Below are positions 5,396-18,572 of a stretch of 64,000 bases of DNA, one piece after another; positions within the stretch are counted from its first letter, which is position 1, and each line of letters opens with the position of its first letter. The position numbers were made by a program, and so were the translations under genes. The stretch lies in NCBI RefSeq assembly GCF_021028995.1, contig NZ_JAJJZG010000003.1, positions 124,001 through 188,000 of the forward strand, given 5' to 3'. The notes under the pieces are model-generated. The model was not told the DNA's origin. It made no database searches and saw nothing but the letters and a program-made list of their open reading frames with translations. Source of the stretch: Halobacterium sp. KA-4. Lineage in GTDB: Archaea; Halobacteriota; Halobacteria; Halobacteriales; Halobacteriaceae.

Positions 5396-6097
5396 TCAGT
5401 CGCGGTACGCGAGCAGGGCGGCTCCGGCAATCGCGAGCGCGGCGACGGCGATCCCGAAGCCGGGCAAGTTGGCGTTCGAGTCGTCGGTCGTGTCGACGGC
5501 CGTCGTGCCGTCGCTGTCACCGGTCGTGGACGCTGGCGTCTGCTCGTCGCCCTCGGTGGTCGGCGTGTCGTCGCTGGTGCCGGAGCCGACGGTCAGCGTC
5601 GCGGTCGTCTCGCCGCCGCTGGACTGCGGGTTGATGTCGAGTGGCGTCACGTAGCTGCCGGCTTCCTCGGGGTGCTGGACGTCCTCGTAGACGACGACAA
5701 CTTCGTCGCCCTCGTCGACGTCGTAACTGCCGCCGAGGCCGATGGTGAGGACTTCGCCGTTGCTGGATGCGCCGACGCTGTCGACGTCGTCGGAGACGTT
5801 CACGTCGATGGTGTCGCCCGAGGCGTCGTCGCCGCGGTCGATGCCGATCTTCGCGACGTCGTTCTGGTCGACGTTACTGGCGTCCGCGCCGGACTCGGAG
5901 TAGTCAACTTCGAAGCCGTTCCACGAGCCGGCGGTGTCGGCGCCGGCGGTCGCGGTCACGAGGTGCGTGGAGGTTTCACCGGGACCTTTCGGGTCGGGGA
6001 CGAGCGAGCCGTCGGTCGCGGCGCTTGCGACACCGGCGGTGGCGCCGGTGACGACTGCGAGCGTGACCAGGGCGACCGCAAGGCGGTTAGCATTCAT
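5396..6097 (-). CDS. Secreted surface protein with PGF-CTERM anchor
   Basis: A 233-aa protein with a Sec signal peptide (MNANRLAVALVTLAVVTGATAG, cut near ASAA). A beta-rich domain of about 130 residues contains VVVVYEDVQHPEEAGSY. A Thr/Ser/Asp-rich linker of some 40 residues follows, the usual O-glycosylated wall-spanning stalk. The C-terminus reads NLPGFG, then a hydrophobic helix and a basic end (YRD). That is the PGF-CTERM signal cut by archaeosortase A before lipid attachment. The protein therefore sits on the cell surface. Its ligand or partner is unknown. It is transcribed divergently from the tautomerase. Confidence 0.85.
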   Translation of the reverse strand: MNANRLAVALVTLAVVTGATAGVASAATDGSLVPDPKGPGETSTHLVTATAGADTAGSWNGFEVDYSESGADASNVDQNDVAKIGIDRGDDASGDTIDVNVSDDVDSVGASSNGEVLTIGLGGSYDVDEGDEVVVVYEDVQHPEEAGSYVTPLDINPQSSGGETTATLTVGSGTSDDTPTTEGDEQTPASTTGDSDGTTAVDTTDDSNANLPGFGIAVAALAIAGAALLAYRD

Positions 6098-16876: not shown

Positions 16877-17583
16877 GAGGAGGCGTACGGGCCGGACGGA
16901 CTGAAGCCTTCCGACGATCGTTCGCGGGACGGGCCGGCTATCTGTCTTCGAGGAGGGAATCCCGCCGTTTACGGCGTTGACGACACGCGTTGGGTCTCGT
17001 TCGCACACCAAAACGCTCCGCGTTTTGGGGACGGGCGTGAATCCGACAATTCCTCCACGAATCACGTGCTGACGCCGATACGGCTATTTACGTAGCATCA
17101 ACTCGTCGCATGACGTACACCGAGGCGGTTCGCCGCCACCTAAATGCACAATATCGGGACTCCGAGGCCCAGAACGTTCGAGACACCCTCTCGAAGGGCT
17201 GTGGTGTCTCACCCAAGATAACTCCGAGTCCCCTTTCGGGAATAGGAGTAACGGCGGTGTGACCCCGCCAGTAGCCTAGTCATGCCGACTGGGCTACAAA
17301 CCAGCAAATATCCCAAACCAGCGTTGCGGTGCGGACGTGGGGAGCCTCGCCGTTCGCGGCGAGGAGGAGGTCACCGAATACACTACTCGCGACCGACCGG
17401 TTTTAAATCCATTACTGGGCAGGACAGAGGTTCATCTGAGTCGCAGTGCGACGGGGTGCTGTTCGCAGTCGTCCACGCGTCTCGCTCATGGATGCGCCGC
17501 TGGAACTTCTATTCTACTGCCGACGCTCGCCATCGGAAATAACAACCGTTTGATGTATCTGTCATCGGGTTCTGAGTGAATAC
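16877..17583. other. Gene-poor 707-bp region with multiple hairpins (IS200/IS605-like relics)
   Basis: No protein gene is convincing here. From left to right it holds a hairpin CGCCG-TTTA-CGGCG at 16963-16976 preceded by GAGGGAAT. A perfect 9-bp hairpin (CCAAAACGC-TCC-GCGTTTTGG) follows at 17008-17028. The folded block at 17101-17374 is listed separately. A canonical TATA-like TTTTAAAT lies at 17401-17408. It can serve either strand. Short frames such as the 86-aa one at 17282 overlap the hairpins and have no protein-like composition. Confidence 0.6.
17101..17374 (+). ncRNA. Strongly folded RNA-like block ending in an IS200/IS605-type right-end hairpin (tnpB-less)
   Basis: Six consecutive inverted repeats can be read on the plus strand. 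Stem 1 is GGCGG-TTCG-CCGCC at 17124-17137. Stem 2 is GAGACACC (17180-17187) with GGTGTCTC (17203-17210). Stem 3 is ACTCC/GGAGT (17221-17249) around CCC-TTTC-GGG. Stem 4 is GGCGG/CCGCC (17253-17269). Stem 5 is GTAGCCTAGTC-ATGCC-GACTGGGCTAC (17271-17297). Stem 6 is CCTCGCCG-TTCG-CGGCGAGG (17345-17364) followed by AGGAGGTCAC. The last hairpin plus AGGAGGTCA resembles the right end of haloarchaeal IS1341-type elements, whose 3' part forms the TnpB guide RNA. No tnpB is present. Identity as an omega-RNA relic is inference; the stems are seen directly. Confidence 0.5.
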
Positions 17584-18225
17584 GTGGGGGTCATCGCTGA
17601 ATTCACGTTCCGGCACCCGGGACTGCCGCTGATGCCGACGCTCGAAGAGAGCGGCGTGCAACTCGACGTCGAGCAAGCCGTCGCTGCCGACCCCGACGAG
17701 CCCGTCCTGTTCGTGTGGGCGTCCGACGGCGACCTCGACGACTTCGAAACCGCCGCCGAGCACGACCCGACGGTCGCGGACTTCACGCTCGTCGAGGACG
17801 CCGGCGACCGCCGGCTCTATCGGGTGGCCATCAACGGCGAGACGCCCGTGTCGCTGTACCCGATCGACGACCGCATGGAGGCATCGCGCCTCGATGTCTC
17901 CTCGACGGCGGACGGTGTGGAGGCGCGGCTCCGGTTCCCGGACCGGGAGAGTCTCTCGGAGTTCCAGCCGCGCGTCGAAGTGCGCGGCGTCGACGTCACC
18001 CTGCGCGGCGTCTACAGCGACACCGAGACCGCGCTCGGCGACGAGTACGGACTCTCCGCGAAACAGCGCGAGGCCCTCGTGACGGCTGCGGAACTGGGAT
18101 ACTACGACATCCCCCGGCAAGCGTCGCTATCCGACGTCGCCGACGAGATCGGCATCTCCTCGCAAGCGGTCAGTGAGCGCCTCCGGCGCGGCATCAAGAC
18201 GTTCGTGCGGGAAGAACTGGACTGA
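17584..18225 (+). CDS. Bacterio-opsin-activator type HTH-10 transcription regulator
   Basis: A 213-aa protein from a GTG start (VGVIAEFTFRHPGLPL), a typical N-terminus for this haloarchaeal group. Residues 1-150 are the alpha/beta sensor part. The HTH-10 domain is at the C-terminus: LSAKQREALVTAAELGYYDIP, then ASLSDVADEIGISSQAVSERL. A GATGTATC box around 17552-17559 is about 26 bases upstream. Its stop codon coincides with the edge of a right-end-like element (18226 on). Folded relic sequence flanks the gene on both sides. Targets unknown. Confidence 0.88.
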   Translation: MGVIAEFTFRHPGLPLMPTLEESGVQLDVEQAVAADPDEPVLFVWASDGDLDDFETAAEHDPTVADFTLVEDAGDRRLYRVAINGETPVSLYPIDDRMEASRLDVSSTADGVEARLRFPDRESLSEFQPRVEVRGVDVTLRGVYSDTETALGDEYGLSAKQREALVTAAELGYYDIPRQASLSDVADEIGISSQAVSERLRRGIKTFVREELD

Positions 18226-18572
18226 AGTAATCCTGACCTCCTCCCACTCTTTCAGGGGTGGGATTCCTCACGCGGTGGGCAATCCCGCTTGATTGCCGCA
18301 CTCGGAGGCAAATTTCCCCTCTTTTCGGGGTACTCCGGTCTGCGGGTTCCGCTTCGGCCCCTGAACGGGGGTCGTGGTGTGCCTTTCCCCTTGCCGGGGT
18401 ATCCGCTCGCGGCAGAGCGCCTCGTGTTGCCACGAGAGCGTCTCTCCCCGTCGTGTTCTCTCGGGGAGCCGGCGGGCCGGGCCATCGGCCCAACCACCGC
18501 TATGGTGGTGAACAAGTGCGGGGTGGGCTTCCGCTCGCAACGTGTCATATTGCTGGTGCGCGACGCGCAGCT
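18226..18572 (-). repeat. Probable IS200/IS605-type element relic, right end next to the HTH-10 stop
   Basis: Read on the minus strand, this gene-free stretch ends with TCCCAC(18263-18258)-loop-GTGGGA(18247-18242), followed by GGAGGTCA (18241-18234) and GGATTACTTC. The hairpin-plus-GGAGGTCA order is the same as at 17345-17373, but on the opposite strand. The remaining 300 bases carry further short inverted repeats, such as CCCC-TCTTTT-GGGG-like and CCACC-GCTAT-GGTGG. No TnpB zinc-finger codons are present. A 95-aa plus-strand frame at 18292 is not protein-like. Element class is inferred from the shared terminus. Confidence 0.45.

Follow-up and report, generated by a model that had tools for sequence, protein, structure and literature searches.

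The window, 64,000 nucleotides of contig NZ_JAJJZG010000003.1 from Halobacterium sp. KA-4, holds at 16942-17374 a locus that, by its sequence, is a copy of a mobile and protein-less element of the IS200/IS605 type (PATE-like, 433 bp). The features recognized there, all on the + strand, are the following.

16938..16941, +: target tetranucleotide CTAT at the left end, presumed TAM of a TnpB (own-genome copies, empty sites)
16942..17374, +: complete protein-less IS200/IS605-type element, PATE-like, 433 bp (precise insertion into tnpB at L124, empty sites, alignment of own-genome copies)
16957..17044, +: palindrome of the left end, guide tetranucleotide GAAT; a guest insert at about 16976-17029 breaks the 3' half (comparison with L002)
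17085..17090, +: TATA-like box TATTTA, shared as TATTTAA/TGTTTTAA by most of the 32 aligned elements, which come from many genera
17110..17212, +: 5' RNA domain (R2 model, 149.5 bits in the window)
17124..17137, +: hairpin GGCGG-TTCG-CCGCC of the 5' domain
17142..17163, +: conserved strand AAATGCACAATATCGGGACTCC of the 5' domain
17156..17162, +: GGGACTC, able to pair at long range with GAGTCCC at 17226-17232 in P1 of the omega-RNA, as the 5' strand of the helix (paired changes)
17177..17195, +: hairpin TTCGAGA-CACCC-TCTCGAA of the 5' domain, with a loop able to pair with GGTG(TC) at 17203-17208
17213..17374, +: omega-RNA scaffold (R1 model 1-157, 158.8 bits; covariation)
17221..17249, +: P1
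17253..17269, +: P2
17259..17264, +: P2 loop GTGACC, pairing with the terminal GGTCAC at 17369-17374 (pseudoknot with the transposon-encoded motif, TEM; covariation)
17271..17297, +: P3
17311..17343, +: P4
17345..17364, +: right-end hairpin P5
17375..17394, +: host flank CGAATACACTACTCGCGACC, presumed guide by analogy with TnpB omega-RNAs

Ends and insertion site of the element

The first-pass annotation had described a densely folded, tnpB-less locus at 17101-17374. The stems are present where it had placed them: GAGACACC/GGTGTCTC (17180-17187/17203-17210, 8 bp), GTAGCCTAGTC/GACTGGGCTAC (17271-17297, 11 bp including one G-T) and the perfect 8-bp stem CCTCGCCG-TTCG-CGGCGAGG (17345-17364), followed by the terminal sequence AGGAGGTCAC at 17365-17374. 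This stretch folds better than its dinucleotide shuffles (z = -3.8; 1 in 200 as good), and neither a tnpB nor any other likely gene overlaps it. The element itself starts about 160 bases further left than had been proposed, at 16942. The presumed IS1341/IS605 right end is not a single degraded one: it closes a member of a mobile family that is present in multiple copies and whose ends are defined.

Eight copies of the element are found in the Halobacterium sp. KA-4 genome. Their alignment gives a common left end, CTAT|CT...GGAGAGAATCCC palindrome, and a common right end, ...GGCGAGGAGGAGGTCAC|, with CTAT directly before the left end in all seven copies whose left end is readable. The mode of insertion is illustrated by L124 (G055:C1, another genus), where a solo element interrupts a tnpB gene and where removal of everything from after CTAT to GTCAC restores an unbroken TnpB frame of 418 aa; the tnpB-like frame at this locus is thus a property of the interrupted host gene. 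Likewise, at the L003 site, G008 and G011, from the same genus as the window, lack the element and read CTAT|CTTTGAAG, the exact join of both flanks, while the L006 site is empty in G015 and G016 and reads CTAT|right flank. Since the L124 excision is precise and these sites are empty, insertion takes place 3' of CTAT and without target duplication, and knowledge of this mode fixes the window element at 16942-17374. For the window copy itself, the search for an exact empty site gave only diverged orthologous intergenic DNA (71%, in G015 and G008).

The element contains neither tnpA nor tnpB between 16942 and 17374 and is therefore not an autonomous IS200/IS605 transposon; at 433 bp, it is also too short for a transposase gene. 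Both of its near-terminal palindromes are shared with the IS605-related elements L019, L061 and L073. The window copy is somewhat worn, with GGAG in place of GAAG as right guide tetranucleotide, an extra A in P1 and three extra bases in P4, and its left-end palindrome is interrupted, unlike that of L002 in the alignment of own-genome copies. The guest insert responsible for this interruption (16976-17029) belongs to a set of small, hairpin-rich sequences (CAGAACGC..GCGTTCTG) that recur in the palindromes or in P2 of elements (P2 of L007, L008, L109 and L187). A similar insert is seen in the left ends of the tnpB elements L019 and L073, and these guests resemble the SMR-A repeats reported in PATEs of Haloquadratum.

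Several observations concern the surroundings. In L004 (G000:C7, from 38322 on), the left two thirds are 97-98% identical to the window and are followed by unrelated sequence, a junction that reflects recent duplication or recombination. A second, weaker IS1341-like right end (GAATCCCACCCCTGAAAGAGTGGGAGGAGGTCAG) lies on the - strand at 18220-18560 (R1 13.6 bits on 18233-18385) and is likely a worn remnant, and a further weak R1 match is found at 5745-5909 (-). The element matched nothing among phage records, and a search of genome contigs with the neighbouring HTH protein returned distant loci only.

A maintained omega-RNA scaffold and its 5' domain

The first-pass annotation had read the whole of 17101-17374 as a possible omega-RNA-like gene. 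This holds for the scaffold at 17213-17374, whereas 17110-17212 is a separate conserved 5' domain. Rfam returned nothing except tRNA at its gathering scores, but at a relaxed threshold the haloarchaeal sot0042 family (RF02656), a TnpB guide RNA, matches the scaffold over its full length (17216-17365) with 48.3 bits and an E of 5.6e-11, short of the 88 bits set as gathering score. In an alignment of 15 sequences, 95.2% of the positions in the P1-P5 and pseudoknot structure are paired and 13 pairs have changed on both sides (35 cells). None of 500 shuffles, which preserve column make-up and not relatedness, and no slid version of the structure was comparable; MAFFT used sequence only for the alignment, but the structure was derived from the same 15 sequences, which biases the slide control towards it. 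The pseudoknot is paired at 98.9% in these sequences, with two pairs exchanged on both sides (G-C to U-A and C-G to A-U). The window group has GTGRCC/GGTCAC at this place, the tnpB element L019 has GTGGCA/TGTCAC, and a second group (group 2), whose elements end in GTCAA and follow TTAC, has TTGGCA/TGTCAA. Comparative sequence analysis thus indicates that the scaffold structure is maintained by compensatory change. Relatives had been proposed as the place to look for uncompensated stem substitutions; what they display is compensation, in the stems as well as in the pseudoknot.

The scaffold displays two hallmarks of haloarchaeal TnpB omega-RNAs, namely the pseudoknot between the P2 loop and the TEM and a right-end hairpin followed by the guide flank (PMC12558985); P5 covaries and the element ends in GTCAC. 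A third one, location at the 3' end of tnpB, is absent from an element that carries no such gene. By analogy, the host sequence after the element end, CGAATACACTACTCGC..., would serve as guide. Distinct insertions have a different guide each, which is simply whatever flanks them, and this speaks against the alternative suggestion of an RNA adapted to another job. The L003 guide, located beside CTAT, matches the empty alleles in G008 and G011. As for L124, its guide (CAACGGTCGGGTTGCCGTGG) would target tnpB genes, as the element sits in a conserved part of tnpB.

Upstream of the scaffold, the TATA-like box is kept in most elements (L151 lacks it) and, from the usual haloarchaeal TATA spacing, we infer a transcription start at about 17108-17115. 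Scans for bacterial promoters and terminators gave nothing, and none were expected in an archaeal host. ATG 17111 was also considered as the start of a small leaderless protein, a reading rejected because the first hairpin varies by one to three bases among copies and the frame is broken by stop codons. Within the 5' domain, the loop of the second hairpin and its downstream partner change together across groups (GACACC/GGTGTC, ACACCC/GGGTGT, GCACCC/GGGTGC and GGAATCC/GGATTCC). In group 1, the 8-bp repeat at 17180-17210 corresponds to this loop/downstream-strand pairing, which may alternate with the hairpin stem because the two overlap. Formal covariation counts on the MAFFT alignment are modest for the 5' domain, partly since groups 2 and 4 are misaligned there.

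The two domains are connected by the long-range helix. Among 48 solo RNAs, 18 have GGGACTC/GAGTCCC and 15 GGGATTC/GAATCCC; 37 pair at all seven positions and four at six, in a count for which L129 and L188 were misread by the script. L170, L180, L183 and L186 have a six-base helix in a different register (judged by eye), and the helix is broken in L005. In L132, which otherwise belongs to the window-like group 1, the helix is switched on both sides, with L107 as a one-sided intermediate. This helix and the inner P1 stem exclude each other; the predicted energies, in which pseudoknots are ignored, are -114.7 kcal/mol for the fold with P1 and -109.6 kcal/mol when the helix is imposed. A fold switch between the long-range helix and P1 is possible on these models.

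Candidate partners and spread among haloarchaea

Proteins able to act on the element in trans would be available in the same genome, which has 43 matches to the TnpB zinc ribbon and five to TnpA. In L061, a complete tnpA+tnpB element, the left end has CTAT and GAAT and the right end GAAG and GTCAC, as in the solo elements, which makes L061 a plausible source of transposase. Among own-genome tnpB elements, the omega-RNA of L019 (TnpB of 416 aa, guided_TnpB 182 bits) is the most similar to the solo RNA by R1; it scores 119.6 bits, partly by construction since it is one of the 15 sequences of R1, and is followed by the tnpB 3' ends of L057 (114.9) and L056 (113.4). In the sample of genomes that carry solo elements, tnpB was found in 20 of 20 and tnpA in 18 of 20. 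TnpBs with solo-like omega-RNAs are without the canonical RuvC-II glutamate (VGDL/AVSW versus VFEDL), and their nuclease activity is uncertain for that reason. The TnpBs of L019, L056, L057, L040, L042 and L047 read VGDL..IRED or AVSWPEDVRES where the others of this genome have V/IAFEDL, and in these six the glutamate is missing or relocated. Relocation of this glutamate has precedents among relatives of TnpB (PMC10711439).

Matches to R2 (promoter and 5' domain) occur in 70 of 292 haloarchaeal genomes and 40 of 77 genera, adjoin R1 scaffold places wherever both sets were compared and, in a phylum-wide draw, are confined to the order of the window. The scaffold model R1 reaches further (246 of the 292 genomes), because it also detects tnpB-linked omega-RNAs. 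None of the best 30 R1 loci has a zinc-ribbon tnpB joined to its RNA, and the 5' domain is present in nearly all of them, in a sample biased to solos as R1 was built mainly from solo copies. Recent near-identical copies are present in G055 and G087. A shorter tnpB-less group with an omega-RNA scaffold and without the 5' domain was also seen, as two near-identical copies in one genome (L115 and L116, G023). Halobacterium salinarum NRC-1 has a group-2 copy on pNRC200 (NC_002608.1, about 267,989-268,286; R2 93.6 and R1 145.8 bits), in the unannotated gap between VNG_RS11705 and VNG_RS11710, whose expression could be checked in existing public RNA-seq reads.

Interpretation and comparison with known systems

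We consider that the element is probably a mobile solo guide-RNA gene, i.e. a non-autonomous IS200/IS605 element whose sole cargo would be a promoter-driven RNA in which the 5' domain is joined to a full omega-RNA scaffold of the TnpB type. The element is mobile, multi-copy and shared by 40 genera, its RNA structure is kept by compensatory change, and tnpB and tnpA are present elsewhere in the genome. Homology, compensatory changes, the promoter-like site and this conservation support the early suggestion of a retained solo omega-RNA with a guide after 17374. Transcription driven by TATTTA would yield an RNA of about 265 nt extended by some 16-20 nt of host flank, to which a TnpB from another element would bind in trans. 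The resulting ribonucleoprotein would recognize CTAT plus guide, which is the same site without the element, and cut it; a copy lost during single-strand transposition would then be regained from the sister copy, ensuring copy retention, while TnpA in trans would mobilize the DNA through the end palindromes. Finally, the 5' domain, linked to the scaffold by GGGAYTC/GARTCCC in competition with inner P1, probably serves to gate folding, or to protect it, until a TnpB is bound, a step that we regard as the least certain of the mechanism. In a bolder version, which we put forward only tentatively, the promoter-driven solo guide RNA alone would constitute an RNA-only selfish element, a parasite of the TnpA and TnpB of others, whose scaffold would be switched by the 5'-domain helix between a locked and a TnpB-competent state.

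The best-surviving alternative is a passive PATE, whose terminal palindromes suffice for TnpA in trans and whose omega-RNA likeness is functionless ancestry. IS605-like end palindromes without a transposase gene are indeed common in haloarchaea (PMC3119063), and ends alone are enough for TnpA. However, compensatory change is seen in P2, P3 and the pseudoknot, distant from the ends, the TATA-like box and the 5' domain are kept across genera although they lie outside the ends, and changes are coupled within the 5' domain, all of which make this explanation unlikely. Slightly less credit goes to a decoy or anti-TnpB RNA, in which the solo RNA would titrate TnpB away from the omega-RNAs of autonomous elements and the 5' domain would block productive loading. 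The overlap of the long-range helix with inner P1 fits such a role, a complete scaffold could occupy TnpB, and omega-RNA decoys have already been raised for circular forms (PMC12558985); against it, the requirements of a real guide are kept (terminal pseudoknot, right-end hairpin, direct join to the flank) and the P1 state has the better predicted energy. Decay of a former tnpB element after loss of its gene would account for ends and scaffold similar to those of L019 and for the few damaging changes of the window copy, but it is highly improbable here and refuted for the family as a whole, as copies from many genera share one 5' domain in the place of tnpB, recent near-identical copies exist and empty sites are exact. 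TldRs are nuclease-dead relatives of TnpB that repress a host gene with a conserved guide, and a fixed-target regulatory RNA of this kind, which the altered RuvC-II residues of the best-matching TnpBs could evoke, is the most improbable of all given that the guide is the flank of each insertion, varies among distinct sites and has no conserved target.

Should the reading as a mobile solo guide-RNA gene be correct, a transposon in its own right would have arisen from the guide RNA of a CRISPR-ancestor nuclease, and it would be selfishly retained through RNA-guided cutting without a nuclease gene of its own. It would also illustrate the separation of guide and nuclease genes into distinct loci, a step towards CRISPR arrays, and provide a reason for the co-residence of many tnpB genes and protein-less palindromic elements in haloarchaea. 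Besides, it would represent a natural cargo of one single RNA, amenable to tests in a model organism.

Bacteria have stand-alone omega-RNAs of IscB, a nuclease different from TnpB, as well as IS605 PATEs. These may be parallel cases, in that the guide RNA lies apart from its nuclease gene or the element has no nuclease and keeps the same ends. In the literature covered by our search, we found no tnpB-less elements that combine a promoter-like site, a 5' domain, a maintained omega-RNA and a long-range helix, nor stand-alone TnpB guides or PATEs bearing omega-RNAs. What is already known are the PATEs of Haloquadratum (PMC3119063) and the omega-RNAs that overlap tnpB (PMC12558985). Like the PATEs of Haloquadratum walsbyi, the solo element has no transposase gene, near-terminal IS605-related palindromes hit by guest repeats, no target duplication and multiple copies; those PATEs were described as non-coding DNA (PMC3119063), whereas the solo element has a promoter-like site, a 5' RNA domain, a complete omega-RNA scaffold and conservation across genera. 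With the sotRNAs or TnpB omega-RNAs of haloarchaeal IS1341-type elements (RF02656 sot0042; PMC12558985), it shares P1, P2 with its loop-TEM pseudoknot, the right-end hairpin and the flank guide, but they overlap the 3' end of tnpB while the solo RNA, which has no tnpB, comes with a 5' domain and a promoter-like site of its own. As in IS200/IS605 transposons (IS608-like TnpA chemistry), guide tetranucleotides precede the end hairpins and insertion occurs 3' of a tetranucleotide, with CTAT as target, or TTAC in group 2, and ends GTCAC or GTCAA; in contrast to these transposons, neither tnpA nor tnpB lies inside. On sequence grounds, the solo element thus appears to unite the features of PATEs with most of those of omega-RNAs, location at tnpB excepted.
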